NCBI RefSeq assembly: GCF_900143055.1 | Contig: NZ_FRCW01000008.1 | Location: 1 to 64,000 of the forward strand | Direction of reading: 5' to 3' | Length of the DNA: 64,000 nt | Origin: Fibrobacter sp. UWR3 | Lineage (GTDB): Bacteria > Fibrobacterota > Fibrobacteria > Fibrobacterales > Fibrobacteraceae | Shown: in pieces, positions 21,944 through 54,906 of the stretch | How positions within the stretch are numbered: the first letter of the stretch is position 1 | How the letters are laid out: every line of letters begins with the position of its first letter | Translations under genes and position numbers: made by a program | Notes under the pieces: generated by a model | Database searches by the model: none | What the model was told of the DNA's origin: nothing | What the model saw: only the letters and a program-made list of their open reading frames with translations

Positions 21944-21996
21944 CTTTCCCCGCAAATTTTTTTTCCAGAAAATAGCCTTTCCCCGTAAATTTTTTA
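21938..21996. repeat. 33-bp tandem duplication
   Basis: AATAGTCTTTCCCCGCAAAT (from 21,938) and AATAGCCTTTCCCCGTAAAT (from 21,971) are 33 nt apart and differ at two positions, each followed by T residues. The second copy overlaps the stop codon of the GAF-HlyD gene. The rest of 21,697-21,993 holds only the DUF4143 remnant. Confidence 0.6.
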
Positions 21997-23433
21997 CCAC
22001 CAGAGCTTTATGCGCAGGTAGTCAATGGCCTGGTGCGAAAGGATCCACCAGAGCGTGTGCTTTTCGGCGAAAATCTTCGCGATGCCCGTCATGCCGGGGC
22101 GGAACCATGCGGGAGTGCCGTACACGAACTCGCCGCGCACGGCGAACGTGTTTTCCTGCTCCTTGACTTCGGCGGTGGGGCTTACGCGCTTGGTCTCGAA
22201 ACGGTAGACGTAGTCGGGACGGCTCTTGACGGCGAGCAGGCCCTGGTTCCCGATGGTCACGTTGCGGAGTTCCTGTTCGGGGACGTTTATTTCGACGTAG
22301 ATGTTCTCGATGGATGACATCTGGAACAGTTCGGAACCCTGCTTCACGGGGGCGCCGAGCCTTTTTTGCAGGTCGCCTTCGATGATGATGGCGCTGTCGA
22401 CGTTCACGACCACTGTCGCCATCGAGAGCTTGTAGCGCACGGTCTTGAGCTTTGCCTGGGTCTGGGCGAGGCGCGCCTGGTGTATGCGCATCTCCGCGAG
22501 CTCGTGTGCGGCCTGCGCCTTCTGGATTTCGCGGCGGCTGTCCTGTTCCTGGGCCATGAGGTCGGCCTCTTCGAGCCGAAGCTCCGTCTGGTTGAGGCGC
22601 AGCAGGGGCGAACCCCTGTATACCACGTCGCCCGGCTTTACGAATACGGTGTCGATGTAGCCGTCGAACGGGGCCGTGGTGTAGATAATCTTGTCGGTCT
22701 TGAGGATTGCCGGTGCGCTTATTTTGTACGGAAGCGGGAAGAGCGTCGCGAAAAGGATGAACGCGATGGCGATGAGCCCGAGCAGCTTTGCCCAGGTGTG
22801 CTCGATCCCGAAAACCTTGGAAAGCCCCTTGCGTATAGCCCTTGCCATGCGCAGGCCGAACCAGCTGCTTTTGGTGTAGAGTTCAAGGAGGCGTGCGCTG
22901 CAGAGTGTGGACGTCAGGTACACCTGTTCGCTGTCGAGGTCGCTGAACGGTCTGGAATTGCGTTCGCAGCAGATTACGCCCACGATGTCTTCGCCGTTCC
23001 GGATGGGGACCGTCAGGATGTATTTTGTGTGGTAGGCCGCGCTGTAGAGCTCGTGTTCGCGTATCGAGAGAACGTTGTTTTCGGGAGCGGGGTAGACTAC
23101 CGCGGCATCCTGCTCGTAGGCCTCTTCCATGATGCCTTCGAGGTCGCTCACCACCTGCATCTTCTTTTCGAAATGGTCGGTATGGCTGAGCGCCTTCAGT
23201 ACAACGTAATCGTGCTTGACCCAGCCGAGGCTCACGCGTTCGGCGCCGTACTTGTCGCAGAGCCCGCTCGCGAGCGCGAGGCTTGCCGTCTTGAACTTGT
23301 CGCAGGCGAGTACGGTCTGTGCCACGTCGAACACCTGGGTCATCTGGGAAATCTTCGCGTTGGAACTGTTCAGCGCGCCCTGCATTGCCTTGAGTATCTT
23401 GGCCGGGTCGATCTGTGGCGTCGTCTTATTCAT
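21994..23433 (-). CDS. GAF-HlyD fusion: membrane fusion protein with sensory N-terminus
   Basis: 479 aa. Residues about 35-190 are a GAF-like domain (VSLGWVKHDYVVLKALSH, ILTVPIRNGEDIVGVICCER), which would lie in the cytoplasm. One membrane helix follows (about 213-233, LLGLIAIAFILFATLFPL). The periplasmic part is a HlyD/AcrA adaptor: a split lipoyl motif (APFDGYIDTVFVKPGDVVYRGSPLL, then VVVNVDSAIIIEGDLQKRLGAPVKQGSELF), a short coiled-coil hairpin, and a beta-barrel with PGMTGIAKI. It is the last gene of a four-gene operon and overlaps the TolC-like gene by 8 nt. GAF-HlyD fusions are known next to M50-HlyD proteins in loci for very large surface proteins, as here. It could couple export to a cytoplasmic signal. 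Confidence 0.85.
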   Translation of the reverse strand: MNKTTPQIDPAKILKAMQGALNSSNAKISQMTQVFDVAQTVLACDKFKTASLALASGLCDKYGAERVSLGWVKHDYVVLKALSHTDHFEKKMQVVSDLEGIMEEAYEQDAAVVYPAPENNVLSIREHELYSAAYHTKYILTVPIRNGEDIVGVICCERNSRPFSDLDSEQVYLTSTLCSARLLELYTKSSWFGLRMARAIRKGLSKVFGIEHTWAKLLGLIAIAFILFATLFPLPYKISAPAILKTDKIIYTTAPFDGYIDTVFVKPGDVVYRGSPLLRLNQTELRLEEADLMAQEQDSRREIQKAQAAHELAEMRIHQARLAQTQAKLKTVRYKLSMATVVVNVDSAIIIEGDLQKRLGAPVKQGSELFQMSSIENIYVEINVPEQELRNVTIGNQGLLAVKSRPDYVYRFETKRVSPTAEVKEQENTFAVRGEFVYGTPAWFRPGMTGIAKIFAEKHTLWWILSHQAIDYLRIKLWW

Positions 23434-24967
23434 TCAGCAGTTCCTTGCGTAGGGTGGGGGTACCCTGGTTCCATGTCTCGAGTCCGTTTTCGCGGAGGAG
23501 CGCGCCTTTGGCGAGCAGGAGCTTGACGTCGACAAGGTGCATGTCGCGGATGTTCTCGAGGTGGCGCTGCTCGGCTTTGCGCAGGTCCTCTTCCATGTCG
23601 AAAATCACGTGGTAGTTGCTCTTGCCGAGTTCCATCTTCTTGAATTCTTCTTGCAGTTCGGTTTCGTGGTAGGTGACCGCGATCTGGCTGAGCCTCGTCT
23701 GTTCGCGGATTTCGGTCGCCCTTTTCTGCAGGTTGCGGAGCTCTTCGGCAAGCTTGTCCTGGATGAGCGCGAGCCTCACGCGGGCGGCACGCACGTTTAT
23801 CTTTTCGGCGGCGGCCTGGTGGCGTTCGCCCATGTTCGCGAACAGGGGTATGTCGATTTCGATTCCGCCCGAAAGTACGGTCTGCCTGTTTTCGGCATGC
23901 TTGAAGTCGCGCACGGCGCGCCTTGCGTCGCTGTCGCGGCTGCGGATGCCGAAGTTCCCGACAAGGTCGAGCGTGGGGAGCGCCCTGGTGCGGTGCTGCT
24001 TTAGGCCCTCTTCGCGCAGGTCAAGTTCCGCAAGCTGCTGCAGGTAGGCGGGGTGCATGCGGCACGAATCCGCGCTCGAATCGCCCGCTGCGGGCGTAAT
24101 GGGGCCTGCAGCGGTATCGTTGTCGTTCGGGGGCCTTATGGCGAGGGGGCGGGAGTCCTGCACGTACTTGCTCGATGAGAGCGTGAGCAAAAGTTCGAGC
24201 CTCGCCCTTCTCAGCTGGTCGATTGCCGAGAGCCTCGCGCTTTCGCGGTCGGAATATTCGGCGACGGCCTTCTGCTGGTCGAGCGCCGAAAGCATGCCCA
24301 GCTGCTGCCGCTTGCTTGCGTCTTCGGCGATTTGCTTTGCGACCTGGGCGGATTTCGTGGCGAACTGGAGCGTCTGTTCGGCGTAGTAGTAGTTCCAGTA
24401 GGCTTCGTAGAACTTGTCGAGGATTTCGCCGAGCGCGCTGCGGTATTTCTGGTAGGCGATTTCCTGTTGCAGGCGGGCCAGCCGCAGGTTGCTCGTGGGC
24501 GCGAAGTAGAGCAGACCGTCCTTGAGCAGGTGCTGGCGCAGTTCGCCGCCGAAATAGAGCTCGGAGGTGTATTCGCTGTGGGTGTATGTCGCCTGGTTGA
24601 ACCCGATGTTGTATTCGGTGGCGGTGGGGAGCTTGCCCTGCACGCCAATCTTGTATTCGTCGCGCGTCTCGGTAAACAGCGCGCTAGGCTTGTCGGCGCG
24701 TTCCTTGTTGATGCGCCCCACGAGGTGCGGCTCGAATTCGCCGTACGTGCCCTTTGTCATTTCGGCCTGGGCAATCCAGTTGTATTTCGCCTCCTGCACG
24801 TCGGCGTTATTTTCGACCAGCACCTTGAGCGCCTCGTCGAGTTCGAGCACCAGCGAATCCCCTGGAGTCGCCGTGCCTGCCGAATCGGCCTCCGCCGCGG
24901 GCGATTGTGCCGCCACGAGGGCAAGCGCGAGGGCGAACGGGGGCAGGTATGCGGCGTGCATGGGCAT
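23426..24967 (-). CDS. TolC-like outer-membrane efflux protein
   Basis: 513 aa from ATG 24,965-24,967; the frame extends further upstream only inside the HlyD gene. A signal peptide (AYLPPFALALALVAAQ) is followed by two related helical/strand halves, as in TolC: LELDEALKVLVENNADVQEAKYN opens the first and a YLQQLAELDLREEGLKQHRTRALPTLDLVG segment opens the second. It should form the trimeric outer-membrane channel. Start overlaps the HlyD stop (TAATG), and its own end overlaps the GAF-HlyD start, so all three are coupled. Confidence 0.9.
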   Translation of the reverse strand: MPMHAAYLPPFALALALVAAQSPAAEADSAGTATPGDSLVLELDEALKVLVENNADVQEAKYNWIAQAEMTKGTYGEFEPHLVGRINKERADKPSALFTETRDEYKIGVQGKLPTATEYNIGFNQATYTHSEYTSELYFGGELRQHLLKDGLLYFAPTSNLRLARLQQEIAYQKYRSALGEILDKFYEAYWNYYYAEQTLQFATKSAQVAKQIAEDASKRQQLGMLSALDQQKAVAEYSDRESARLSAIDQLRRARLELLLTLSSSKYVQDSRPLAIRPPNDNDTAAGPITPAAGDSSADSCRMHPAYLQQLAELDLREEGLKQHRTRALPTLDLVGNFGIRSRDSDARRAVRDFKHAENRQTVLSGGIEIDIPLFANMGERHQAAAEKINVRAARVRLALIQDKLAEELRNLQKRATEIREQTRLSQIAVTYHETELQEEFKKMELGKSNYHVIFDMEEDLRKAEQRHLENIRDMHLVDVKLLLAKGALLRENGLETWNQGTPTLRKELLNE

Positions 24968-25761
24968 TATTGCAGGATAATCTTGCCGGTGACGCCGGGT
25001 TCTACGGAGCGGTTGGAATTGTCGAAGATGACCTTGACCGTACGGAGCAGGCTCGCCTTGTCGACCACGGGCGAGATGTATTCGACGGTTCCCTTCTTGT
25101 TGCGGGCCTGCGACGAGCCGTCGAGCAGGAGCTTCACCGTCTGGCCCACCTTGAGCCTGCTCGCCTTGTTCGCGATGATGTAGGCGGTCATGCGGCAGGT
25201 GCGGACGTCGGCGATTTCGACGATGGGTTCTAGCGCCTCCACGCTTTCGCTCCGGTTCTTGGATATGGAGACGATTTCGCCGTCGAACGGGGCGATGAGA
25301 TACTGCTTTTGCAGTTGCGCGCGGGCCATGCGGTGTTCCAGCGAATCCTTGGACTTGCTCACCTTGGCGGCTTCCCATTCGGCCTTCGCCACGCGGTAGT
25401 TCATCTCGCGTTCCCAGAGCTGTTCGGCGCTCACGGAATTCGAAGTTTCGTAGAGCTTCTTGGTTACCGTCCAGTCTTTTTCGTAGGTCTCCATCTTGAC
25501 CCGTGCCGAAACGACGCTCGAGGTGTCTTCGGCGCTTATCTTTGTGATGCGGGCGCGGAGTTCCTCCTCCGTCTTGACCAGGTTCACGAGCGTGTCGCCC
25601 TTGTGCACGAATGCGCCTTCCTTGACCCAGATGCGGTCAATCTTGCCGGGGACGGTGAATCCGATTTTTGCCTGGTCGATGGGTTCGGTCACGCCGTCGA
25701 AACCGGCCGCGAGGGCCGAACCGATGGCGAATAGGGCGGTTGTCAAAAACAGCGGTTTCAT
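24967..25761 (-). CDS. HlyD/AcrA-type periplasmic adaptor
   Basis: 264 aa. A cleavable signal peptide (LFLTTALFAIGSALA) rather than a membrane anchor, then the first half of a lipoyl motif (TVPGKIDRIWVKEGAFVHKGDTLV), a coiled-coil hairpin of about 90 residues, the second lipoyl half (LIAPFDGEIVSISKNRSESV) and an adaptor barrel ending in PGVTGKIIL. It is short for the family. It presumably bridges the TolC-like channel and the inner-membrane proteins. The ATG follows the TAA of the upstream lipoprotein with no gap. Confidence 0.88.
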   Translation of the reverse strand: MKPLFLTTALFAIGSALAAGFDGVTEPIDQAKIGFTVPGKIDRIWVKEGAFVHKGDTLVNLVKTEEELRARITKISAEDTSSVVSARVKMETYEKDWTVTKKLYETSNSVSAEQLWEREMNYRVAKAEWEAAKVSKSKDSLEHRMARAQLQKQYLIAPFDGEIVSISKNRSESVEALEPIVEIADVRTCRMTAYIIANKASRLKVGQTVKLLLDGSSQARNKKGTVEYISPVVDKASLLRTVKVIFDNSNRSVEPGVTGKIILQ

Positions 25762-27234
25762 TTAGGTCGACGAGCTGCTCGAACTGGACGCTGTTGCGGC
25801 TGAACTTGACGACTCGGGCACCCCGCTGCTGGAGCTTGCCGTGGAATCAGCCACGCTGGAAGAAGACGGCGGGACTTCGAGTTCGGTCATGATGAGCAGG
25901 TGTTCGAGGTAAAGCCCGTTCTCCGCGTAGACGGTGACGTCCATGCCCACGGAATCGCCCGGTGTCCTCGCGTCGAGAATCTTCTCGCGCATCTGCACGA
26001 AAAGCGTATCCTTGCTTATCCAGGCGTCCGCCGTGGCGAAACTCCCGTTGCACGAGATGGTTCTCGATGCCTTCGCGATAAAGTGCCACTGCACGCGTTC
26101 CACGTTCTTGCTCAGTTTTTCGGAGAACTTGACCCACAGCGTGTCGTCGATGGAGAAACTGGACCTGTATTTCTCGTTTTGCGGCCAGGCGTTGCTCGTG
26201 ACCGCGTAGAGCCCGCGGTCGGTGGTGAACGCGGAGGCCCCGTCGAGCGTGATTTCGATGCGCTCGTTCTTCTTCTTGGTGTAGGCGACTATCGTCGTCG
26301 AGAACTCGGTGCTTGCGGGGAGAGGCCTGTCGTGCTTGAGGAACAGCGTGTCACCCTTGACCTGCGGCGTCAGGATGAAGGCCGAGTCGCCGGTCATGCT
26401 CACACCCAGGTTGTTTTCGGTAATCGCCTCGTTGAAAACGTAGTAGGGGACCGCGAGGGGCGATACGTTCTTGTAGCCCTTCTGGTCGGTATCCATGACG
26501 TTGCTCGCCTTGATGCGGAACGGGACAGTGATGGAAGTGTCTTGCGGCAGGTAGGCACGGCCGATGTCCTTGCTCGATTCGGCGGCGAGCCTCGGGAGCA
26601 CCGTGGCGGGCAGGGTGAAGCGCAGGCCGTTGTGGGTGTAGGGGGCGATGTTCAGCAGTAGCCCCGAATCGGCGGGGAGCCCCTCGAACTCGAACTTGCC
26701 CAGGGAATCCGTCTTAGTGCTGAAGGAATCCTCGTCGAGGTTGATGTAGGAAGTGTCGGCGTGGGTTATCCAGACCTTTGCCTTTTGGACGGGGAGGGCG
26801 GCGCCCGTCTGCGGGTCATGTATGTAGTATTCGCCCGTGATTCCCGCGTTCAGGGGGCTGAGGCGAATTATGTTGCTCACGCTCGCCACTATCCCGTGCA
26901 TCGATGAGGATTCGTTGGTGGAACCCACCGTGCGCACCTTGGGGGCGTAATGGAGCGTGTCCTTGCCTTTTACCTTTGTGTAGCTGAACGAAAAGCTTAT
27001 CGAGCCGTAGGGGAGCCTGTCGATGAAGAAGGCCCCGTCCTCGTCGGTGGTGGCCATCAGCGTTTTGCCGTCGGCAACCTGGTAGCTAATGGTGGCTCCC
27101 TCTAGCCCCTTGCCGTTGCTGGCGTCGAGCACGTAGCCTGAAAATTCCCACTTGGAATAGTCGTCGCTTTCGGAATCCGTGACCGAGCATGCGGCCAGGA
27201 AAAGCGCAAAAAGAAGGGTGACTAGTTTGTTCAT
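25762..27234 (-). CDS. Lipoprotein with carboxypeptidase-regulatory-like domains and poly-Ser tail
   Basis: 490 aa. Lipobox LAAC at Cys16. Residues about 28-100 are a carboxypeptidase-regulatory-like/Cna-B-like domain (FSGYVLDASNGKGLEGATISY, TDEDGAFFIDRLPYGSISFSF); a second (about 130-215, AKVWITHAD, TDSLGKFEFEGLPADSG) follows. The middle and C-terminal parts are beta-rich with Ig-like strands, and the last 30 residues are Ser-rich. First gene of the operon with HlyD, TolC and GAF-HlyD, with zero spacing to HlyD. A role as a surface-retained partner of the secretion system is inference from context. Confidence 0.75.
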   Translation of the reverse strand: MNKLVTLLFALFLAACSVTDSESDDYSKWEFSGYVLDASNGKGLEGATISYQVADGKTLMATTDEDGAFFIDRLPYGSISFSFSYTKVKGKDTLHYAPKVRTVGSTNESSSMHGIVASVSNIIRLSPLNAGITGEYYIHDPQTGAALPVQKAKVWITHADTSYINLDEDSFSTKTDSLGKFEFEGLPADSGLLLNIAPYTHNGLRFTLPATVLPRLAAESSKDIGRAYLPQDTSITVPFRIKASNVMDTDQKGYKNVSPLAVPYYVFNEAITENNLGVSMTGDSAFILTPQVKGDTLFLKHDRPLPASTEFSTTIVAYTKKKNERIEITLDGASAFTTDRGLYAVTSNAWPQNEKYRSSFSIDDTLWVKFSEKLSKNVERVQWHFIAKASRTISCNGSFATADAWISKDTLFVQMREKILDARTPGDSVGMDVTVYAENGLYLEHLLIMTELEVPPSSSSVADSTASSSSGVPESSSSAATASSSSSSST

Positions 27235-27304
27235 CCTGTTTCCTTTGTTCGAGACTATTTAAAAATCTGAACATCCCAAAACGGGACGGAAAGATAGAAT
27301 ACTC

Positions 27305-27333
27305 TGACAAACTTGTCAATAACGGACAAAATA
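27305..27333. promoter_or_regulatory. Palindrome plus half-site upstream of the secretion operon
   Basis: TGACAA-AC-TTGTCA at 27,305-27,318 is a perfect dyad. Immediately next to it AATAACGGACAAAATA (27,318-27,333) matches, at 15 of 16 positions, one arm of the near-palindrome at 27,461. Confidence 0.45.
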
Positions 27334-27378
27334 GCGTTATGTTGTTTTTGTATTTGAGAACAACTTGCGTGGGTGTAT

Positions 27379-27401
27379 CTTGTAAAAGATAATTTTACAA
27401 G
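27379..27401. promoter_or_regulatory. 9-bp perfect inverted repeat in the divergent region
   Basis: CTTGTAAAA (27,379-27,387), 5-nt spacer, TTTTACAAG (27,393-27,401). It lies midway between the two divergent genes and has no T run, so it fits a regulator site better than a terminator. Confidence 0.45.
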
Positions 27402-27460
27402 GGTTGCTAAATGTTTGTCGGGGATAGAGATAGTAAGTGTTGTATACTTTTTGTAATAAA

Positions 27461-27493: not shown

Positions 27494-27542
27494 ATTTACT
27501 AAAATTACAACAAAATAACAAAAACCATATTGGAGATTTTAT

Positions 27543-27854: not shown

Positions 27855-27879
27855 GTCTCTCTAGGATAACGAGTTTAGG

Positions 27880-46700: not shown

Positions 46701-49700
46701 GGTGACTGTTCAGACTTCTCGTGATGTCGATGACGAAGGAAATGTCGTTATTCATGGCGGTCACGACATCATCGATATTCAAGGCGGCCAGAATACGGTC
46801 ATGGGCGGTGCTGAAGACGATGAAATCGATATTTATGGTGCCGACAACATCGTTCTCGGTGACGGTGGTATCGCTACCCGTGAGTGGAATGATAATCAAA
46901 AGATCTTCGAGGATATTAAGTCCGTCGAGACGACCGATGACGATAATGGCGGTATCGATACCATCAACATCTATGGCGGTAAGAACGCCGTAATGGGTGG
47001 CTTTGCTGGTGATATCATTACTATCGGTGAAGAGGACGGAAACGTCAGTGACCATAACATCGTATTGGGTGATGGCGGCGAGTATAATAACGAGGCTTCT
47101 GATTCTGCCTATATCAAGACCCAGAGCGATGGCATTGGTGGCGAAGACCACATAACGGTCTATGGCGGCCACAATGTCGCTATGGGTGGCTTCGCTGGCG
47201 ATGAAATCGAAATTCACGGTGGCGAAAATGTTGTTCTCGGTGATGGCGGCATTGCCAATTACAATAAGAATCCTAAAGCGGAAACGGTGAATGAATTCAT
47301 CAACTCCGGACTTCGTGATGTTGCAACCACGAGCGATGGTATCGGTGGCCATGACGATATCGATATTTTTGGCGACAAGAACGTCGTGATGAGCGGTGCC
47401 GATGGTGATATAATCGATATTGCCGGTAATGACAACGTTGTCGTTGGCGACGGCGGCCGCTATGACATCTATGAAGACTACAGGACGGTCAAAACCAAGT
47501 CTGAACAGGACGGTGGCCACGATGTTATTCATACCAACGACGGCAAGAATATTGTGATGGGCGGTATGGACGCCGACGAAATCACCACGGGCGACGGAAA
47601 CGATATCATTCTTGGCGATGGTGGCTTTGCTAAGGTCGATAATGACTTTAATGCGCTCTTTGTCACTAATGAGAATATCGACGTCGGTGAAGATCTCGGA
47701 ACGGCCGGTGCCGATACGATCATTGCGGGCAATGGTGACAACGTTGTCTTTGGCGGTCTCGGTAACGACGATATCACGACGGGCAACGGCCAGGATGTGG
47801 TGTTCGGCGATAACGCCTATGCGACATTCCGCGGCAATGCGAACGAGGCGTTCGAACAGGTGGGCGACCGCCAGAATGTCCCGGATGTATACGAAGAGGC
47901 TACGCTCAGTTTCAACTTCCAGGGCGCATCGCAGACGGGCCTCAACGCGACGGATTACGTCGGCGCTCCCGAATTTGAAAGCCGCAACTGGAACAACATC
48001 TCGGGTTCGCTCGCGGGTACTTACGGCAACGACGACCGTGAAGTCGTGAACATGGACAATCTCGATGTTACGGGCGAGAAGTCTGCCGACGAGACCCGCA
48101 CGCGTGCAAGCGGCGTGAGCGTGTCTTATGGTGGATACGAAAGCCATCGCAACACGAGTACGGACAACCGCATCAACCTGCAGGCCTACAACCTCGGCCT
48201 CTGGAATATGCAGGGCGACAAGAATGCTAAACTCATGAATTCGGGTCTGATGACGACGGCCCCGAACGCTCAATGTGGCAGCAAGTTCGAAGTGGCTGTG
48301 GACGGCCTCGCGCAGTATTTCACCAGCTATAAGGTGGTTGTCTATCTCGACATCCCGGATTCACATTCCGCATACGGTAGCAGTGTGCGCAAGGTGAGCC
48401 TGTTCGTGGGCGGTTCCGAAGAGCCGTATTCGGCCTATTACGTGAACGATGCAGAGGGACACAACTTTGACGGTTCCTTCGTGCAGGCGACTGCGACGAG
48501 CGCCGACACTGCCGAAGCCGCGAACTACGTGGTGTTCGATGTGCCCGCCGGTGCAATTGCCGACAACTTCCGCGTGGTTATCGAGGAAGCGTATCCGAAC
48601 AATGCCCAGAACGGCAAGAACCTCGCGGGCATCGCTGGCATCCAGGTCAGGGGCACGCTCCACAGGCAGGATGTCGCCGCCACCACGGACATCGACTTCG
48701 GCGGCGATGATATCATCAAGACTGGCCTCGGCGACGATATCGTAGTGGGCGGGACCGGCAGCGACGATATCACCACCTTCGGTGACGAACGCTACGGCAT
48801 CTATGACAACGACGTCGTCTTCGGCGACAACGCGAAGATCCTGCTTACCGACCGCGACAGCGACGAATCTACGGCTTCGACCATCTCGACCGCGGAATCT
48901 GTTGCCGTTACGAATATCGATACGGCGACCTACGACGACACCATCAATACCGGCGACGGTAACGATACCGTGGTGGGCGGCATCGGCGCGGACACGATCA
49001 ACGCGGGTGCAACGGAAGCTGCCGAGGCCATGCTCGACGGCGTTAAGGCCGCATCGGTCAACTTCACGCTCGAGAATGCCGACGCCTCGTTGAAGGTGGG
49101 AAATGGCGAGACTGCTGGTGTGGTTGCCGACACTGCCTGGTGCAATATGTACGTGAAGAACGGCGAACTGCATGATGTCGATAACTACTCTTCGCACAGC
49201 GTCAAGGGTATCAATGTGACAATCTCTTCGTATCAGCAGAACAGCGGCTGGTGGAACGAGATGTATGCGGGCAACTACGCGATGACGCACGAGAATAGTT
49301 CTGAACTTGACGGCGATACCGCGAATTCCAAGTTGTTCAACGGGTATCTCGCGTCGCAGCAGCACGACGAGATTAAGCTCACGCTCGACAGTATCGACCA
49401 GTTCCGTGCTCAGAGCGGGCTTGCCGCGGGCGACGCCTGTGACATCTATGTGTATCTCGGCGCTGACAATGGCGATACCGATACTTACAACTATATTTAC
49501 CAGGTTTCGCTGAACAATGGCGAGAAGCGGTTCTTGAATGACTGGACCGGCTACAACTTCGATGGCGACTACAGGGAGGCTACCTGTGATTCCTACGAAG
49601 ATGCGATGTCTGCCCTGCACGAAGGTTCCGCCGTCCGCATGGAGATTGTTGGTAATTATGTGGTGTTCCGCAACTTCACCGGGAACCGTGCCGAAATCCG

Positions 49701-50769
49701 CATAAGGAACGTATTCACGAGTAGCGGGCAGAACCCGAAGAACCTGCCCGTAATCAACGCGGTTCAGGTTGTTGCGGGCGCAGGCAAGGATGCTGCCGCC
49801 ATCGGTGGCGACCACGACAAGGACCTCGCCTATGGTGATGACGCGAAGCTCGTGTTCGACTTGGATGTGCCTTTCGATGCTGATGTCCCGAATGTCTCGG
49901 AATACAAGAACCGCGTTATCGAGGCCAAGTCTGTTGCCATCGAACACGATGCGGTGACTTCGATTTCGACCAATGACACCATCACCACGGGCAAGGACCG
50001 CGACGTTGTCGTGGGTGGCGAAGGTGCCGATGACATCACGATGGGCGCTGGCGACGATATCGCCCTCGGCGGTAGTGCGAACCTCGTGCTCGAGCACAAC
50101 AACCCGCTGGGCGTGTTCACTCCCAATACCGAGATTGCGCTCGACCAGCATACCATCAACACGACGCAGCACCAGAACTACCTTGACAACGACAACGCGA
50201 ACGTGTGGCAGTTCCAGAGCAGGCTCGACCAGAACCTCATCCAGGGTATCGATACTTTCGTGTCGAACGAAAACGACCGCAAGGATACCATCGATGTTGG
50301 CGAAGGCAGGAACCTCACGTCGCAGGGCTCCGACAGCACTGCGCAGCTTGTGGTGCCGAAACCCGTGATTGTCGATGACGACGGGCAAGAGGGCAGTGGA
50401 GAAGCCTCTACGCCGACGCCTCCGGTTGTGGCTCCAGACGACGGAACGGTGGTGATTGACCAGGAAGGAACTTCGACCTTGGTTGAAATTGCTGCCGGCG
50501 AGACTGTGGAAATCGTGATTACGGATTGGGACGAGGGCAACCAGTATTACCATCCGAACGTATTCCTGCAGTTGAACTGCTCCGACAACACGAGGCATAA
50601 GCTGTCTGTCACCTGGGATGGTCAGCAGACTGACCCGACGGTGTATTTGCAGAACTATGCAGAATTCGACATTCCTGATGTGGCAACTGTCGTGGGTGAA
50701 CACAAGATTGTCTTGAGAATCACTTCTAGAGACTCCATCTCGCTCATGGCAACTGTTGCTCATCGGTAA
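34756..50769 (+). CDS. Giant LEPR-XLL/RTX surface protein, main part (continuation)
   Basis: 5,337 aa in the open frame; the apparent TTG start overlaps the previous stop and is probably not a real start. The first 2,000 residues continue the beta-rich units with helical motifs (VKIPVINKSVSDLVDV, TSVPVVGPTLGAGVDF, FPVLKDVGISITPLELAKKYG). Two EF-hand-like loops lie near 40,140 (DRDKDGNDINE) and 40,270 (DPNKDGKIRLNE). From 40,720 come RTX-type Gly/Asp nonapeptides (GGAGVDYIVGGAGSDFIDGEEGSD), a spacer domain at about 43,000-44,800 and a second repeat array (44,930-47,830) of GGxNTVMGGAEGDTIDIFGADNIVLGDGG units. Two copies of a domain of about 250 aa (47,890-48,670 and 49,040-49,780) alternate with RTX runs. 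A beta-rich end of about 110 aa follows. Expected to be calcium-stabilised, secreted and cell-bound or released. Confidence 0.85.
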   Translation: MTALPDENKKYTVFALDDSKVNIESELNIEVVKQGEGSELATVNVKAGPLTDGQLSSSKENDLKAELTSTNRICLTSEQKFEFASSADAKAFAELKLSSANLQTCFEAKVSDNKVVLYLVGREDSSEDKAALTINLSVMDGFDNAEDKIAFVNECFSLQSNNDKPLNFSNDDNPLNFISLTGSEVSIAAGNSIMNKFGLYVVDVIMDEDGKSVTSIKFGCDARRLQNYDASKKDEQGFKLTNEGGATTYMRISEELRGNGLEGYNAGVSQKVLLTFSKGGESKQVETKVEAYTLEDLAEKRVQELEGELKDVDGSDLSDYFKATYTKVTDDRDQFFQVMIAPINEAENVLANTLKIFEGYLEEDDLNAWNAEYESKPEEDVISRLQKVLDDDVLQDNKGLLHIVAKEGSNHKYKLAIEVVPFTNTVKVINREITVSVGSTSVSVNVGDCATVSSVANAIEDAIKENVSLEGNDISVSVVGKNIVFTSNNDVKITCDALGRSEEKLTDFVVKSSDTPIEIDFESDVGTIDDNTTIGSVIGKINEKLKDCDLSICYNEEGADDKYLDHLELVGDNPFSIENIGTSIILKQLGFSDAVAVKGADGKYRIFGSALSGMDFSKAFSLKGVSVYANMNLSLGTQIEELKNNISFVDNETKNELKLEFTDTNVRNYNVGGFLEVGDKHYRITDVQNGYIAVSRTSYEGEELSDETPKSSDFWKNATYVASASASLGFVGMDVFASGKIGLNANFELEKTDDPEDDNFFGFKIKDTSKINVTAGETEVIAGEIDEPTGETEGDAGGAEDETPKMFELNAYADVFGSATKLATGEIAVISENKSLRVSPEFVVTDGYKEIVDQFKNFSVEQLLAVLDGLVTRLASITEKTDVKIPVINKSVSDLVDVTKDLQKVIAEMRQQKVTSVQQFVNYMNKHLVDSNFSNEDGDLIKLRYENGNLLFDFNIVKAFSVRHRFDFGSSAMGINGNTNLNVDGKFWFTLSAKLLTNGEFDLLIDCTSEDAKGLEFGAEVEIVGDGIRFDLGICGAEGENEGLLKNLIKVGENGDNAFVYGKACLKGSLGKNSDISLKNFDASTLEPEFRFPIAVYGKLPITVLDVSMGDIILGKWNGTGVHFDKGNVSECRADVDLALNALFNNSENEADYAGLYVLDKKEIPSFQLILDKEPKSGETPFVADLSSVRQGIIDLANGNVSWFDKIKLGITALNTLFETLEAGINTNLGKTITSVPVVGPTLGAGVDFLSVLKDKVLEPFSNFVYESSGLTVEMVAEKMNDLFDAYFRENAALLDSLLLPEGDSESEISEWKRVGGAGTWYRSTNNSAEWFFQLGGSYDWGTSLGLDFGFPGLGLKADGGLDLKLDWSLDFGFGISETDGFYFIFNEGNEINVTASAELNADINGALAGLGLSLQTQGGDNHAAVGLGFGLNLADFDEGKVLGKLELKGSELERLKVSNDLSLSGSDEKTLDRGIGKVAFSSALSKLEFSYAASVDVFASMLVGFGRDVEHPNTPAKFPNISGAFEFVWSKTNGSSGDGLTTLGFSNLSLDLGSFIDGVLGPIVSKIQKVVEPMEPLIDFLTTPFPVLKDVGISITPLELAKKYGGGNFDDSMIKAINSLISMTKQISAMKKNGLNIDLGDFMLVGGDGDEFKAKSFLEGSSSSKSLDSSLSTYAKKLEKSSEITAQASNALGGQGLNVGEGGWDFIWNHPTDIFKMLMGQDIDLVYYDMPKLSFNFDWDTFVSIWGPLGARLGVTFSASIDLSFGYDTLGIHQWIESDRKDYGSLVNGFYVGDRDKDGNDINELSFYGGLTAAAEINAGVKAGVGGGVGINVAFDLFDPNKDGKIRLNEMSQIVKADGLQGLFEISGKITAKLYAYVDLWLTKKKWNITGDITLFSFELTRNTSPILVSKNENGDVIAHVGDNSSSRLYTDDKNISLEDGDEILDLTLDKNSVGSLDIESGKTFFINSKEGVDKLTLSSDVPVEYNLEIRGGEGDDVIDLSGLKIADGYYVVIWGGAGNDRIKAAEGLNIIFGDDGVYTPLDKDDKEKDKGAKLDDGDRFVVEGKFNAGVSGDDIILGNKGSQVIIGGVGSDKIRGKEGDNIILGDAGHVEFVVNDNGSIDMESVSTARTDTDLDGGNDYLFGGAGVDYIVGGAGSDFIDGEEGSDTIKGERGDDYIFGGLGDDTIGGGSGSDIIFGDGFWSDSFDVSKSFDLDVFNDDFKKAHEGKFDGGLSLKRWLDLDDDGFDFLDIEKEISEPENIPEYGEDTINGDEGDDLIFGDAGDKEGKKDTIKGGIGNDVIDGDGGGDIISGGIDNDVIYGGSGSDIIDGGAGNDTIYGDDGAKVYTTNEEVFEKDPVVFGENFGLNEKIYKDAKSTSEGAGDDVITSGLGMDFVDGQEGNDTVIVNLSGGHDVNYTNVIDSGDENENNVLTIEGTELDDKLLMRMNNDKSLGFVALLPEGNNKNIERVNFNKGINEVNLNANGGNDSITIDGTAKSTNVDAGAGNDTIRVGQLYNADMGEANATTNVKNDDLFNTVAVNTDHGVKYLSDGVSAGSTLNIEGAAGDDTFALLHNAGEELKVSGGNGNDGFSMYAFSDKNGLAIENGVISMDGGRGIDSLLVRGSESNDLVVVSKDGLLSSFGAVQVAGVETKDFDAAGGEDIFNVVGSSEKETIVLNGGNGSDTVVVGGGLTESEILRGSNNQGQNASLKYEIMDDEGLADDEKDRYDISAAGKTFEEKYSIINTSSVPSVFVSSSDTSILPVKAKYVTEGDENGVLAFYVGCSGDLKSGTVSVKLRAPKLTTSELQSGDAGILICYEDETGRTEYSDSCDIQFKTSGKSVKVYVRAISDGLCEGNLLKSITISSTWYKGDGSDPVNLEDSAKSASVIVKDSTDPSTKNKNLFSWSEVFKIDASTSEISLESIGSDFAKENIHAYYIDVDAEPELHFNTETEKWEVVGLSEGTLVVNYRSNKAQIDSSKIRIAYDNIESLDRVKLDEKIILSKTDYENPQKRKGANVDTSVYYELAGNMLVFFNSSTRQLVTLHGVLSVDSKMGPNIENDEVLEQHEDKCDFLTIKEHTHTLVEATKNASEATPEVFTYTEFTVEYNGTIADNKKMRIKITVEDALRSIGGDKSAEDLYLKYEDQEGDTVIVTLENGSTSSTIRLVAKCDTVNEEYGLVDAKSSGSGNKLDDVKGAIYAYGKGESIEVDYDNLVMLKYNHFVDKDGKVINSYNESSGTEEEESPAPMTDSDTDDLNSVDRIMVNNYDSDAAATSQLRSLDGRDLYYATRDYEGLYDLYKGIESSMLKQDYALRFTLRNPSTTTLLTYFGVSMSEFEFGEFNLGTGADKVVVSKTLHRDDGFQTFTVVNTGDGNDVSDDEITVNRYDSENDGQLVINAQGGKDKITATGSKITKDGMVVLGGAGADEIKVDSGVIAFGDKGNIQYKDGDTVVTELGYYGEDVGEHKAGDIIRTETGKLQTDGVVRGASSIASVMPSEGDADDITASGQNSVVIGGSGSDKITVTGEKNVVLGDNGVVNFHNEGSAESWRENNITTSLEKVQTINNSVGETDTINIAGSHNVVMGGNGGDKITIGESGKENGIDNVVLGDGGVAEFTQGVATTDNFMVNAAIKSVKTEDDSDGARDEIKIYGGLNTVMGGAGNDDITIGDEGKDEDHQNGNENVVLGDGGSYVVDKDNGEVTVKTSREEIDDAVVIHGGEDTIKIYGGQNTVMGGAEGDTIDIFGADNIVLGDGGESIREWNADNEVYDSIKSVMTTDDDNGGVDTVNIHGGKNAVMGGADGDTITIGDGKTSDGDENAEDDNENQNGNENVVLGDGGSYVVNKTTGEVTVKTSREEIDDTVVIHGGEDTIAIHGGQNTVMGGAEGDTIDIFGADNIVLGDGGESIREWNADNEVYDSIKSVMTTDDDNGGVDTINIHGGKNTVMGGADGDKINIGDESQDNGRENVVLGDGGSYVVDEENGEVTVQTSRDVDDEGNVVIHGGHDIIDIQGGQNTVMGGAEDDEIDIYGADNIVLGDGGIATREWNDNQKIFEDIKSVETTDDDNGGIDTINIYGGKNAVMGGFAGDIITIGEEDGNVSDHNIVLGDGGEYNNEASDSAYIKTQSDGIGGEDHITVYGGHNVAMGGFAGDEIEIHGGENVVLGDGGIANYNKNPKAETVNEFINSGLRDVATTSDGIGGHDDIDIFGDKNVVMSGADGDIIDIAGNDNVVVGDGGRYDIYEDYRTVKTKSEQDGGHDVIHTNDGKNIVMGGMDADEITTGDGNDIILGDGGFAKVDNDFNALFVTNENIDVGEDLGTAGADTIIAGNGDNVVFGGLGNDDITTGNGQDVVFGDNAYATFRGNANEAFEQVGDRQNVPDVYEEATLSFNFQGASQTGLNATDYVGAPEFESRNWNNISGSLAGTYGNDDREVVNMDNLDVTGEKSADETRTRASGVSVSYGGYESHRNTSTDNRINLQAYNLGLWNMQGDKNAKLMNSGLMTTAPNAQCGSKFEVAVDGLAQYFTSYKVVVYLDIPDSHSAYGSSVRKVSLFVGGSEEPYSAYYVNDAEGHNFDGSFVQATATSADTAEAANYVVFDVPAGAIADNFRVVIEEAYPNNAQNGKNLAGIAGIQVRGTLHRQDVAATTDIDFGGDDIIKTGLGDDIVVGGTGSDDITTFGDERYGIYDNDVVFGDNAKILLTDRDSDESTASTISTAESVAVTNIDTATYDDTINTGDGNDTVVGGIGADTINAGATEAAEAMLDGVKAASVNFTLENADASLKVGNGETAGVVADTAWCNMYVKNGELHDVDNYSSHSVKGINVTISSYQQNSGWWNEMYAGNYAMTHENSSELDGDTANSKLFNGYLASQQHDEIKLTLDSIDQFRAQSGLAAGDACDIYVYLGADNGDTDTYNYIYQVSLNNGEKRFLNDWTGYNFDGDYREATCDSYEDAMSALHEGSAVRMEIVGNYVVFRNFTGNRAEIRIRNVFTSSGQNPKNLPVINAVQVVAGAGKDAAAIGGDHDKDLAYGDDAKLVFDLDVPFDADVPNVSEYKNRVIEAKSVAIEHDAVTSISTNDTITTGKDRDVVVGGEGADDITMGAGDDIALGGSANLVLEHNNPLGVFTPNTEIALDQHTINTTQHQNYLDNDNANVWQFQSRLDQNLIQGIDTFVSNENDRKDTIDVGEGRNLTSQGSDSTAQLVVPKPVIVDDDGQEGSGEASTPTPPVVAPDDGTVVIDQEGTSTLVEIAAGETVEIVITDWDEGNQYYHPNVFLQLNCSDNTRHKLSVTWDGQQTDPTVYLQNYAEFDIPDVATVVGEHKIVLRITSRDSISLMATVAHR
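40720..41790 (+). repeat. First RTX-type calcium-binding repeat array
   Basis: Gly/Asp-rich nonapeptide-like coding repeats, for example GGAGNDRI, GSDKIRGKEGDNIILGD, GGNDYLFGGAGVDYIVGG and GDDYIFGGLGDDTIGGG. These match the hemolysin-type calcium-binding motif GGxGxDxUx. Confidence 0.85.
45788..46660 (+). repeat. 444-bp near-identical tandem DNA repeat inside the giant gene
   Basis: The segment from 45,788 recurs from 46,232 (offset 444 nt) with near identity over about 310 nt (45,850-46,180 versus 46,294-46,624), including TCTCGAGAAGAGATTGATGA in both. A more diverged third unit follows from about 46,645. Confidence 0.8.
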
Positions 50770-50777
50770 TCTGTTCT

Positions 50778-52964
50778 ATGGTTCTCGATCAGCAGCGCAA
50801 GATATTCCATGAGTCGTGGTACCGCCTTGCGGGGAGCAAGATCTCCCTCAGGGCGAGTGTCCGCGTCCACAGGCAGACCTACCGCGGTGTACTTTGGTAC
50901 GTACTTTACGAACCGTTTACGAACCAGTATTACCGATTGCCTCGCGGGGCATACGACTTCGTGTCGCGCCTTTCGCCCGACAAGACGGTGGGTGAGGTGT
51001 GGAGCGCCATGCTCAAGGGTAGCGAAGGCGAGATGCCCGGCCAGGGCGAAGTCATCGAGATGCTTGCGCAGCTGTACCAGGCGAACATGCTCATGTACAC
51101 GGGCGTGGACGATGGCGCAAAGCTGTTCGAGCGCAACCGAAAGCAGAAGCAGAAGAAGGTCAAGGCCTCGCTCTTGAACATCTTCTTCTTGAAGGTGCCA
51201 CTGTTCGACCCCGATGCCCTGCTCAATAAGCTGCGCTGGCTTATCCGTTTCTTGCTGAGCAAGCCTTTCGCGCTCGTGTGGCTCGCGACAGTTATCGTCG
51301 CCGCGAAATACGGTGTCGAGAACTTCGATGCCCTCAAGGACCAGAGTTCGGGATTCCTTTCGCCGTCGAATATCGGCTGGGTCTACGTGTGTACCGTGTT
51401 CGTGAAGCTCTTGCACGAATTCGGCCACGCGAGCGTCGTCAAGCGCTACGGGGGCGAGGTGCACACGCTGGGCGTGATGTTCATGCTGCTCGTGCCTCTT
51501 CCGTATGTGGATGCGACGGTGAGCTGGTCGTTCCGCAAGAAGTCGAGGCGCGCTCTGGTGGGGGCCGCGGGCATGCTCACGGAATTCTTTATCGCCTCGG
51601 TCGCCCTGATTGTCTGGGCGAACCTTGGCGGTGGACTCGCCAAGAATCTTGCGTACAACGTTGTTATAATGGCCTCGGTTTCTACCGTGCTGTTCAATAT
51701 CAACCCGCTCATGCGATTCGACGGTTACTATATCCTGACCGATTTGCTGGACATGCCCAACCTGCAGCAGAATTCGGTACGCCACCTCAAGTACCTGCTG
51801 GAACGTTACGTGTTCTTCAAGCGCGATGCCGAGGCGGTTGCCGAGACCTGGCTCGAACGCGTAATTTATTTGGTTTACGGAGTCGCCTCGTCGATCTACA
51901 GGATTTTCCTGTTTACGGGGTTCATCGTCACCATCTCGCAGCACTACCTGATACTTTCGTTTATCATGGGAGCCCTCCTTTGCCTGACGATGGTGATTAT
52001 GCCGGTGGGCAAGTTCCTCAAGTACATCTTCGCAAGCCCGGGGCTTGCGCTGGTGCGTAACCGAGCCGTTTTCGTGACGGTTCTGGTGCTCGGCAGTGCC
52101 ATATCGCTGCTGTTCTACCTGCCCGTTCCCGACACGTTCAAGGCTCCCGGCGTTATAGAGGCGTCGCGGTACGAAAACACGACGGTGGGCGAGGGCGGCC
52201 TTGTTGCCGACGTGTTCCGCGGCGAAAAGGCGAAAGTCAAGAAGGGCGATACGCTGATGGTCCTCGAAAACCGCGAACTCGATTTTTCGATTGAGGAAAA
52301 GCGCGCTCAGGTGAGGGAGGCCGTGCAGGCCTACTACCAGGCGCTGGACCGCGCTCCCGAAAATATGCTGCCGCTCGAAAAGAGGCTGGGCGTGCTGAGG
52401 CAGGAGCTGGGCGACCTGCTGCGCTACCGCGACAAGTTGACGCTTGTGGCCCCGATGGACGGCATTTGGGACGTGAAGAACCCGGACGAGTACGTGGGCC
52501 GCTTTATGCAGCGAGGCGACTCGATGGGGATGGTGCTCGACACGACCGCATTCGACTTTTTGGCGGTGGTGAGCCAGGAGGAGGTCTCTCGCCTGTTCAC
52601 GGAAAAGCCGCGCAAGGTTTCGGTGCGGCTCAGTGGCGACGCCTTTACCGAAATCCCTGTCGATAGCGTTTCGGCTATTCCTGCGGCGCGTGACCGCTTG
52701 CCTTCCGCTGCGCTCGGGTGGCTTGGCGGTGGCGAAATCGAGACGCGTGCCTCGGGCGACGCGGGGGATGGGTATGGCGAACGTACTGCGGAACCCGTCT
52801 ACCTGGTGCGTGCGACAATCAACAGGGACGATGCGGCCCTGTCGGGCATTGACTGGGCGCACGGCCGTTCGGGCAAGATTCGTTTCCATTTGAAGGATAC
52901 TCCGCTTGCCCTGCAGGGAATCCGCAAGGCGCGCCAGGCCCTGCAAAAGTACTACAAGATGTAA
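50778..52964 (+). CDS. PqqD-like / M50 zinc metallopeptidase / HlyD fusion
   Basis: 728 aa. Residues about 10-110 resemble a PqqD-type winged-helix peptide-binding domain (YYRLPRGAYDFVSRLSPDKTVGEVWSAML). The central membrane part has the M50 (site-2-protease) motifs HEFGH (H213, E214, H217) and NPLMRFDGYY (from about residue 309, third zinc ligand Asp), with several hydrophobic helices on both sides. From about residue 450 a periplasmic HlyD-type part follows: a lipoyl motif (GGLVADVFRGEKAKVKKGDTLMVLENREL), a coiled coil and an adaptor barrel. Eight nt separate it from the giant gene and one nt from the SecA-like gene. It is expected to be the inner-membrane component or a processing protease of the export path. 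Confidence 0.88.
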   Translation: MVLDQQRKIFHESWYRLAGSKISLRASVRVHRQTYRGVLWYVLYEPFTNQYYRLPRGAYDFVSRLSPDKTVGEVWSAMLKGSEGEMPGQGEVIEMLAQLYQANMLMYTGVDDGAKLFERNRKQKQKKVKASLLNIFFLKVPLFDPDALLNKLRWLIRFLLSKPFALVWLATVIVAAKYGVENFDALKDQSSGFLSPSNIGWVYVCTVFVKLLHEFGHASVVKRYGGEVHTLGVMFMLLVPLPYVDATVSWSFRKKSRRALVGAAGMLTEFFIASVALIVWANLGGGLAKNLAYNVVIMASVSTVLFNINPLMRFDGYYILTDLLDMPNLQQNSVRHLKYLLERYVFFKRDAEAVAETWLERVIYLVYGVASSIYRIFLFTGFIVTISQHYLILSFIMGALLCLTMVIMPVGKFLKYIFASPGLALVRNRAVFVTVLVLGSAISLLFYLPVPDTFKAPGVIEASRYENTTVGEGGLVADVFRGEKAKVKKGDTLMVLENRELDFSIEEKRAQVREAVQAYYQALDRAPENMLPLEKRLGVLRQELGDLLRYRDKLTLVAPMDGIWDVKNPDEYVGRFMQRGDSMGMVLDTTAFDFLAVVSQEEVSRLFTEKPRKVSVRLSGDAFTEIPVDSVSAIPAARDRLPSAALGWLGGGEIETRASGDAGDGYGERTAEPVYLVRATINRDDAALSGIDWAHGRSGKIRFHLKDTPLALQGIRKARQALQKYYKM

Positions 52965-52965
52965 T

Positions 52966-54906
52966 ATGAACCTTACCGACAACTATCGACTGACATCTTG
53001 CAAGCAAGTGAAAAAGATCCCGACGGGCCTCGATGCCCTGATGTCGCGGATGGTCGGAAAGTTCAAGGGCCGCAGGGGAGTGCTGCGCGGGCTTTTGAAA
53101 GATGCCCGGAGTATCGACCTGTGGAGCCGTTCGTTTACGCAGCTCGACGATGCCTCCCTGAAAAAGCGCATGGCGGACATGCAGGCCGAACTCAAGCGCC
53201 CCTTCGCGAAGAGCGCTCTCCTGAAATCGTTTGCCCTGGTGCAGGAGGCCGTGTCGAGGACTCTCGGGTACCGGCCGTATATCGAGCAGTTGACGGGAGC
53301 GCTTGCGCTTTACCGCGGGTATGTCGCCGAAATGTCGACTGGCGAGGGCAAGACGGTTACGGCTGCCATGTGTGCCGCTGTGCGGGGCTGGAGCAAGCGC
53401 CCGTGCCACGTGATTACGGCGAACGACTACCTGGCTGCACGCGATGCCGAAATCATGAAGCCGCTGTATTCGTATTGCGGGGTGAGCGTCGGGGCGGTGA
53501 CGGGTACGATGAAGCCCGCGGAGCGGCGCGAGGGGTATTCGGCCGACGTGACTTATTCTACGGCGAAAGAAGTGTTGGCAGATTTTTTGCGCGACCGGAT
53601 TGCGATGGGGGATTTTCAGGATTTTGGCAAGCGGCTCGTTAGCGCCACGACCGTGAATATGGAACGCCTGAAGGCGAACCTGGTGCAGCGCGGGCTTTAT
53701 ACGGCCATAGTCGACGAGGCCGACAACGTGCTGATTGACGAGGCCGTGACCCCGCTGATTATTTCGCGCGAAAAGAAGAACGACGAGTTCAACGAGGCGT
53801 GCCGCCTTGCATACAAGGTATCCGAAAAGCTGAAGCGCCGTACGGATTACGAGGTGGACTACAAGAACCGCACCATACGCTTTGTTGTCGATATGGAATC
53901 CCGCCTGGACGATATCGGCGAAGAGATTTCGTTTGCCCGCGCCGGTTTTTTGAAGGATTTGGTGCGGCAGGCGCTTGTGGCCCGCGAACTGTTCGAGTGT
54001 GGCCGCCATTACGTTGTCGAGGAAGGCAAGGTGGTGATTGTCGACGAATCGACAGGCCGCAAGATGCCCATGCGCTCGTGGAACGGCGGGTTGCACCAGA
54101 TGATAGAAATCAAGGAAGGGCTCGAAATGAGCGGCCTCAAGGAGACGGAGGCGCGAATGAGCTTCCAGCGCTTCTTTAGGCTCTACAGGAATTTCTCGGG
54201 CATGACGGGTACCGGCAAGGAGGCCTCCGCCGAATTCTGGACAATCTATGGTGCTGCCGTGGTGTGCATCCCGAATCACCGCAAGAGCAAGCGAAAGGTA
54301 TCGCACCTGAAGACTTTTGCGAGCAAGGACGCCAAGCGCCGCGCCATCGTGAAGGAGGTCATCCGCATGCACGAGAAGGGCCGTCCCATCCTGATTGGCA
54401 CGAAGGACATTGACGAAAGCGAATACCTTGCGTCGGCCATCGAATCGAAGGGCCTGCATTGCCGAATTATCAATGCGGTTCGCTGCGAGGAAGAGGCTGC
54501 CATCGTGGCCGATGCGGGCAAGTTCGGGGCCATTACGGTCGCGACGAACATGGCCGGCCGCGGTACCGACATCAAGATTCCGGACAAGGTCAAGAAAATC
54601 GGCGGGCTCCATGTGATTGCGACGGAGTGCAACCCCTCTTCGCGCATTGACCGCCAGCTTTTCGGCCGTTCGGCGCGCCAGGGCGACCCGGGGAGCGTGA
54701 GCCACTACGCCTCGTTCGAAGACGATGTGCTGCGCCGTAACCTGCCGAACGCGCTTGCCGTGGCGTTCAGGCACCTTGGACCCTTTTCCGCCCTTTCGGT
54801 GCGCTGGGCGCAGCATCGGGCGGGCAGAAAGGCTTACCAGAGCCGGCTTTCGGTACAGCGCACCGATACGTGGCTTGAGGATTCGCTCGGGTTCAGCGGG
54901 AACTAG
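52966..54906 (+). CDS. SecA-like ATPase, shortened paralog
   Basis: 646 aa, against about 900 for SecA. Nucleotide-binding motifs are intact: MSTGEGKTV (residues 123-131, Walker A Lys129), HVITANDYLAARDAE, VDEAD (249-253), NFSGMTGT, TNMAGRGTDIKI and FGRSARQGDPGS (from F566). The segment between the DEAD motif and the second motor domain resembles a preprotein cross-linking region. After the last motif only about 75 residues remain, so the C-terminal helical wing/scaffold domains and the zinc finger of SecA are largely missing. Start ATG 52,966 lies one nt after the M50-HlyD stop. The context suggests a dedicated motor for the giant protein, in place of an ABC ATPase. Confidence 0.88.
   Translation: MNLTDNYRLTSCKQVKKIPTGLDALMSRMVGKFKGRRGVLRGLLKDARSIDLWSRSFTQLDDASLKKRMADMQAELKRPFAKSALLKSFALVQEAVSRTLGYRPYIEQLTGALALYRGYVAEMSTGEGKTVTAAMCAAVRGWSKRPCHVITANDYLAARDAEIMKPLYSYCGVSVGAVTGTMKPAERREGYSADVTYSTAKEVLADFLRDRIAMGDFQDFGKRLVSATTVNMERLKANLVQRGLYTAIVDEADNVLIDEAVTPLIISREKKNDEFNEACRLAYKVSEKLKRRTDYEVDYKNRTIRFVVDMESRLDDIGEEISFARAGFLKDLVRQALVARELFECGRHYVVEEGKVVIVDESTGRKMPMRSWNGGLHQMIEIKEGLEMSGLKETEARMSFQRFFRLYRNFSGMTGTGKEASAEFWTIYGAAVVCIPNHRKSKRKVSHLKTFASKDAKRRAIVKEVIRMHEKGRPILIGTKDIDESEYLASAIESKGLHCRIINAVRCEEEAAIVADAGKFGAITVATNMAGRGTDIKIPDKVKKIGGLHVIATECNPSSRIDRQLFGRSARQGDPGSVSHYASFEDDVLRRNLPNALAVAFRHLGPFSALSVRWAQHRAGRKAYQSRLSVQRTDTWLEDSLGFSGN

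Follow-up and report, generated by a model that had tools for sequence, protein, structure and literature searches.

In a 64-kb window of the Fibrobacter sp. UWR3 contig NZ_FRCW01000008.1 (the window being the whole stretch of DNA that was analysed; the genome is 3.55 Mb and 100% complete), we describe a gene set for which we moderately favor one function. It would be a dedicated, type-I-like envelope exporter of giant LEPR-XLL proteins that is free of any ATP-binding cassette (ABC) component. In this exporter the leader of the giant would be bound by an M50-HlyD protein, and a short SecA-like ATPase would drive export. The genes are linked, they are inherited together, and no ABC exporter is linked to them. 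An earlier note on this DNA had proposed that a SecA-like motor and an M50 membrane protein replace the ABC component of a type I exporter. The linkage, the co-inheritance and the lack of a linked ABC exporter support this proposal. As to the roles, we infer that the short SecA powers export and that the M50 protein is part of the membrane path.

The giant, M50-HlyD and short SecA genes follow one another on the forward strand, behind a FISUMP lipoprotein gene. The giant substrate occupies two frames, the first (29252..34759, 1835 amino acids, aa) with an N-terminal LEPR-XLL domain (NF012209, 24.6 bits, cut-off 17) and the second (34756..50769, 5337 aa from a TTG) with RTX repeats (PF00353, 1.8e-31). 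After 8 nucleotides (nt) comes the M50-HlyD gene (50778..52964, 728 aa), a fusion of an RRE/PqqD-like domain, an M50 intramembrane metalloprotease and HlyD, recognised by NF041824 (162.8 bits), by motifs and by a structure model. The short SecA-like ATPase (52966..54906, 646 aa) begins 1 nt further on. It is supported by PF07517 (293.9 bits), PF21090 (163.4 bits), PF01043 (76.1 bits), motifs and a structure model, and has no hydrophobic segment. Divergent from these genes, the reverse strand carries lipoprotein, HlyD, TolC and GAF-HlyD genes. The GAF-HlyD membrane adaptor (21994..23433, 479 aa) matches PF01590 (36.1 bits, cut-off 22.4) and HlyD_D23 (61.6 bits), with a single hydrophobic segment at 210-240 by hydropathy. 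The TolC-like outer-membrane channel lies at 23426..24967 (513 aa, likely start 24967; PF02321, 84.7 bits), and the periplasmic HlyD adaptor at 24967..25761 (264 aa; HlyD_3 59.6 and HlyD_D23 55.3 bits). All the components listed by the earlier note are present as profile matches (GAF-HlyD, TolC-like, HlyD, lipoprotein, LEPR-XLL/RTX, M50-HlyD and SecA-like), and the spacing of 1-8 nt between giant, M50-HlyD and SecA-like genes agrees with the measured gaps. The N-terminal signal that it assigned to the separate HlyD adaptor is seen as a signal-like hydrophobic segment at residues 3-22. Two of its details are revised: the SecA-like gene starts at a conserved ATG at 52966, and the giant, with LEPR-XLL and RTX parts both as described, is in this assembly two frames instead of one gene.

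Co-inheritance was examined in 167 Fibrobacterota genomes, of which 33 have M50-HlyD (37 copies) and 134 are M50-negative. With a short-SecA profile, 32 genomes gave 36 matches of at least 583 bits, and a canonical SecA came next at 513. The short SecA, intact or cut by a contig end, is present in 32 of the 33 M50-positive genomes; in the remaining one (G028) the contig stops 16 nt past the M50 gene. Sequence continues beyond M50 in 35 copies; in 34 of them the distance from the M50 stop to the short SecA is -1 to +116 nt. One SecA frame, that of G114, contains one stop. A SecA-like gene without the other components, which the earlier note had set against its own proposal, was not encountered: at 583 bits or more, no short SecA that is intact or cut by a contig end occurs in the 134 M50-negative Fibrobacterota genomes, and the top two Spirochaetota matches are both from M50-positive genomes. 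There are 34 LEPR frames of at least 600 aa over the cut-off, spread over 22 genomes, of which 21 are M50-positive. In the odd one out, G019 (88% complete), a GAF-HlyD gene lies near the giant and M50 was not seen; a 20-kb stretch of its 21.4-kb contig was read, and the giant frame continues beyond the end of that stretch, which hides where M50 would lie. Exact tests, with kinship disregarded, gave 2e-33 for SecA with M50 and 3e-17 for LEPR with M50. The genes form one conserved, co-inherited set that includes the short SecA. Its patchy distribution within the genus marks the set as accessory. One M50-negative genome holds two short SecA fragments (L140, G122:C9:32000-51999), likely a decayed copy of the gene set.

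The earlier note had suggested a search for the neighbourhood of LEPR-XLL, M50-HlyD, GAF-HlyD and short SecA genes; beyond Fibrobacterota, the gene set recurs in two spirochaetes and on alphaproteobacterial plasmids. M50-HlyD is found in two of 392 Spirochaetota genomes, one of which was the centre of the Spirochaetota search, and both carry GAF-HlyD, M50 and SecA in a row. Among the matches listed, these two genomes also give the best short-SecA matches in Spirochaetota (1080 and 610 bits; next 558). The mid-length SecA frames among those matches include two that run off their contigs (G314, G374) and others of, for example, 533 aa (G382) and 745 aa (G487). Among plasmids, 77 records match M50. 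The best 13 of the 77, at 28 to 33% identity, are all alphaproteobacteria by name, and in 12 of these best 13 the same strand carries a short SecA nearby (eight read as sequence, four by coordinates). Methylosinus has the fullest row, with giant, DUF3467, GAF-HlyD, M50, SecA, HlyD and TolC genes. In Pseudosulfitobacter a SapC gene sits between M50 and SecA, and the short SecA of Rhizobium johnstonii is split over two frames. Genes for SapC (PF07277) and DUF3467 (PF11950) were observed within alphaproteobacterial rows (L044:17251-18072; L123:12857-13138; L125:10496-10837). A further contig scan with two narrow peptide patterns returned 20 loci and has no bearing on absence.

The presumed cargo proteins share an N-terminal motif. 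The conserved block in 17 giant N-termini is E-x-L-E-P-R-x-[LM]-[LM]-[DS]-A; the residues ahead of it are weakly biased toward basic and aromatic ones. The motif is present in 17 of the 19 N-termini examined; a first batch of 15 contained 13 with the motif, and the two motif-less ones, G124C1 and Azospirillum, were left out of the 17. In G124C1 the LEPR match sits in a short frame just 5' of the giant frame, and the annotated start of the Azospirillum giant looks internal. Four of the 17 were chosen for their LEPR matches and the motif was the alignment anchor, so that its conservation is partly by construction. No clear signal peptide was found in the 17 N-termini: their hydropathy peaks at -0.25 to 1.8 and that of three signal-bearing controls at 1.94 to 2.79, the highest giant N-terminus thus being near the lowest control. 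The frame break in the window giant, near 34.69 kb (window 34650-34790), separates the LEPR part from the RTX part and is either a mutation or an assembly error. In a near relative (G103:C4) the giant is one open frame of 7262 aa, stop to stop, and in relatives whose giant begins with LEPR such unbroken frames, measured in the same way, reach up to 8,237 aa. The last ~40 residues look alike by eye in six Fibrobacter giants (the window, two in G005, and G009, G124 and G127), with an IPD motif and a beta-rich end; they could be a second sorting or anchoring signal. A passage of PMC10868602 mentions a LEPR-XLL giant of about 8000 aa in Vibrio, and a passage of PMC9611531 has the domain name within a list. 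In our searches of the open-access PubMed Central literature (preprints outside scope), we found neither a transport route for the LEPR-XLL family nor a description of the gene set.

The short SecA retains sequence features of the SecA motor. Its Walker A, DEAD, SGMTGT, TNMAGRGTDI and RIDRQLFGRxARQGD motifs show no variation among ten sequences, and the clamp (the preprotein cross-linking domain, PF01043) is kept. Alignment with solved SecA stops at residue 592 of the 646 and, in the solved chain, at residue 552 of 783; the helical scaffold, wing and two-helix finger, with which SecA acts in the SecY channel, are thus absent. The remaining 50 or so residues close with a conserved DTWLxxSL stretch. 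Canonical SecAs run to 811 aa or more. The model matches the SecA2 structure 6sxh (Z 27.8, root-mean-square deviation (rmsd) 12.5, 544 residues aligned), SecA bound to SecY in 6itc (Z 27.7, rmsd 7.6, 532 aligned) and SecA-N68 in 5k9t (Z 24.6, rmsd 10.2, 500 aligned), a laboratory truncation which it resembles. Mean pLDDT is 68.6 for this model and 72.8 for that of M50-HlyD; since the models are of middling quality, we use the folds alone. A tree built from 22 short SecAs of three phyla and 12 canonical SecAs separates the short from the canonical ones with 100/100 support.

The established role of SecA is to power the SecYEG channel, and several accessory SecA2 proteins work with the housekeeping SecY. 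An accessory Sec route could be envisaged, in which a SecA2-like short SecA hands the giant to the housekeeping SecYEG and HlyD and TolC act from the periplasm outward only. The rank of SecA2 structures among the best matches to the short SecA is in its favor, as is the presence of SecY in each of 12 genomes searched. However, there is exactly one SecY per genome (8 of the 12 are M50-positive), with none additional beside the gene set. The short SecA has none of the three missing parts, and the giants have no clear signal peptide. We consider this route unlikely, and passage through SecYEG is the less likely path for the giant. With SecA and SecA2, the short SecA shares the fold, all ATPase motifs and the preprotein clamp, but it differs in length, in its separate clade and in its linkage to HlyD and TolC. 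As it comes with no second SecY and no SecY-facing domains, we do not file the gene set as accessory Sec.

How the short SecA might join the conduit is suggested by the membrane adaptor. PF01590 is over the cut-off in this adaptor in 11 of the 11 SecA-bearing loci scanned and was not seen at E up to 0.1 in the four of four SecA-less loci scanned (exact test on these 15 loci, 0.0007). This hints, at the level of sequence, that the short SecA docks on the GAF domain of GAF-HlyD.

Several observations weigh against a SecA-driven exporter. A Thalassospira marina plasmid has a LEPR giant, DUF3467, adaptors, M50 and TolC and no SecA on the plasmid. At the Magnetospirillum, Variovorax and Azospirillum loci (sister loci L048:7938-14022, L126:7718-14100 and L128:7402-14088), TolC, two HlyDs and M50-HlyD are encoded with no SecA nearby. 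Given these SecA-less relatives, SecA is possibly only an aid. In G015 the short SecA is on another contig and does not adjoin M50. Of the M50-positive Fibrobacterota genomes, 12 of 33 are without a LEPR frame of at least 600 aa over the cut-off, G009 falling just under. In three M50-positive genomes tested (via L036, L037 and L038) no LEPR motif was found at E 0.1. As to the docking, kinship may account for the joint presence of GAF and SecA, and the scan may miss a GAF that has diverged; blastp aligns the Thalassospira adaptor across the GAF region. In the M50 tree, Magnetospirillum, Variovorax and Azospirillum branch apart with 100/100 support, and Thalassospira falls among the SecA-bearing rows on a long, uncertain branch.

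These SecA-less loci lend themselves to an explanation in which the short SecA acts as an unfoldase or holdase and holds the giant in an open state for export, the energy comes from another source, and M50-HlyD, HlyD and TolC are the true exporter. Very long genes lie beside M50-HlyD in L126 and L128 (Variovorax, Azospirillum), and the Variovorax giant has a related N-terminal motif, LEARYMFDAA. Yet the short SecA is the sole energy-converting protein seen in the conserved set, the SecA motifs are invariant in ten sequences, and the short SecA is co-inherited with M50 nearly perfectly. This makes such an auxiliary role rather improbable to us.

An ABC profile was built from four ABC ATPase domains of the UWR3 genome and recovers those four by construction; as an independent check, it recovered the two annotated ABC ATPases of L046. 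An earlier pattern search was dropped, as it had missed two of four known ABC proteins. With the profile no ABC ATPase was found in the 64-kb window, in line with the earlier note, which had described the locus as lacking one. That note had also named an ABC exporter in strict linkage in related genomes as evidence to the contrary, and none was recognised near the 44 loci scanned (37 Fibrobacterota copies, one spirochaete and six plasmid loci, in stretches of 5.6 to 64 kb; L122 to L128 and L136 left out). ABC ATPase matches occur in two of the 44, namely an annotated importer in L046 and two frames about 9.5 to 17 kb away in G127. In L125 an annotated sugar ABC importer was observed about 4.7 kb past SecA.

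Ordinary type I secretion through an unlinked ABC exporter would account for the RTX repeats and the HlyD and TolC parts, and the UWR3 genome has 40 ABC_tran matches and three ABC_membrane proteins. However, all three of the latter score below the NCBIfam cut-offs for type I secretion (the highest, against TIGR01846, is 299 of the 725.6 bits required), no ABC exporter was recognised near the 44 loci, and the conserved motif of the giants is N-terminal. We regard this explanation as very improbable. Type I systems (HlyB-HlyD-TolC and the exporters of giant RTX adhesins) share with the gene set the HlyD adaptors, the TolC channel and giant RTX cargo. In contrast, SecA and M50 genes stand here in the place of a linked ABC exporter, and the conserved leader motif is N-terminal, while RTX cargoes of type I systems bear a C-terminal signal according to a passage of PMC8277102; the giants, for their part, may also have a sorting or anchoring signal in their similar C-termini. 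Since no linked ABC exporter was recognised, we do not file the gene set under type I secretion.

The motifs of the M50-HlyD protein of the window are intact (HExxH at 213, NPLMRFDGYY at 309), and H213, E214, H217, N309, P310, D315 and G316, which belong to the HExxH and NPxxxFDG motifs, are invariant across 12 M50 sequences. Its closest relative, 99% identical, is in Fibrobacter sp. UBA7003. The PqqD-M50-HlyD fusion named by the earlier note holds for the M50 motifs, the HlyD part and the RRE/PqqD-like fold, while the family scores of the window protein are under cut-off: its best family is NF041824 (daptide M50), whose equivalog cut-off is 300, and PF02163 reaches 23.0 bits of 27.2, being over the cut-off in several relatives. 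In structure comparison the N-terminal domain is a winged helix of RRE/PqqD-like fold. Residues 20-107 match the leader-bound lasso-peptide B1 protein 6jx3_B (Z 9.8, rmsd 3.1, 82 of 85 residues), a match of moderate Z on a model of the mean pLDDT given above. By sequence, PqqD (PF05402) is over the cut-off in three of seven SecA-linked or Thalassospira M50 proteins outside the window (L037, L123, L127) and under it in L044, L046, L049 and L047; it was not seen in a profile scan of three distant SecA-less M50 proteins. The HlyD part matches MacA (9qgy_G; Z 15.0, rmsd 4.3, 233 aligned). HlyD folds dominate the structure matches in Foldseek and in a second comparison, and among the matches listed, filled by these folds, the membrane part has no counterpart. 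RREs bind leader peptides, and the simplest reading of the modelled fold is that this domain would bind the LEPR leader.

The M50 proteases of daptide and epipeptide maturation (NF041824, NF058609) share with this protein a PqqD/RRE-like N-terminus and an HExxH membrane protease, but here there is a HlyD-domain fusion, linked to giant proteins instead of small peptides. A maturation locus of the ribosomally synthesized and post-translationally modified peptide (RiPP) kind, with RRE and M50 processing a peptide beside a long gene that is a chance neighbour, would fit the daptide M50 family match and the RRE-like fold, yet it is highly implausible, given a leader motif on proteins of thousands of residues in 22 genomes and HlyD and TolC parts that are always or often linked.

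We therefore return to the ABC-free exporter and suggest how it could work. The N-terminal LEPR-XLL leader of the giant, by which these giants belong to the LEPR-XLL domain proteins (NF012209), would be bound in the cytoplasm by the RRE/PqqD-like domain of M50-HlyD. The GAF domain of GAF-HlyD is a possible docking place for the short SecA, which would clamp the unfolded chain and drive it, N-terminus first and by ATP hydrolysis, via an inner-membrane path of which the M50 protein is a part. From there the HlyD components and TolC would take the giant to the surface, where calcium would let the RTX repeats fold. Trimming of the leader may fall to the M50 site. A stronger and more tentative proposal, to which we give somewhat less than even weight, is that the set is a secretion class of its own, in which the RRE of M50-HlyD reads the LEPR leader and a minimal, GAF-HlyD-docked SecA devoid of the SecY-facing domains threads proteins thousands of residues long straight across both membranes, with neither SecYEG nor an ABC transporter involved.

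Two lipoprotein genes accompany the set. One (25762..27234, reverse strand, 490 aa) encodes a carboxypeptidase-regulatory-like domain (PF13620, 54.4 bits) with a lipobox by eye, and its counterpart adjoins the second HlyD gene in related loci too. The other is the FISUMP lipoprotein gene directly 5' of the giant gene (28031..29191, forward strand; TIGR02145, 68.7 bits), and a FISUMP gene precedes giants in six further loci. In Fibrobacter genomes with or without the exporter, FISUMP lipoprotein genes are also followed by leader-only LEPR mini open reading frames (mini-ORFs, about 19-41 aa). That short-frame LEPR matches are noise was considered and rejected, since many are such mini-ORFs. Tandem cassettes consist of a FISUMP gene, a LEPR mini-ORF and a nearly invariant stretch of ~100 nt leading into the next FISUMP gene (L146, L163, L165, L167, L171, L175, L178 and L179), and they occur also in the exporter-less genomes G125, G128 and G158. 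In 21 stretches chosen for short LEPR matches there are 44 short frames, a few of which are chance frames or giant remnants; FISUMP lies at most 200 nt upstream in 34 and a purine-rich stretch precedes the start in 30. Thirteen stubs from seven genomes (two genera) end in FAV-stop and run into the near-identical ~100 nt before the next FISUMP start, and six others end in AAV[EK] or AAIE ahead of an end element that they share. Because giant operons also begin with FISUMP and then LEPR, the mini-ORF units may be silent cassettes. We would guess that they are silent donors, recombining at the LEPR codons, for the FISUMP-LEPR start of giant operons.

If the ABC-free exporter is real, a trans-envelope conduit would here be energized in a new way, by a SecA freed from SecY and standing in for the ABC exporter. 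This would also explain how LEPR-XLL giants leave the cell, and it would extend RiPP-type leader recognition to very large proteins.

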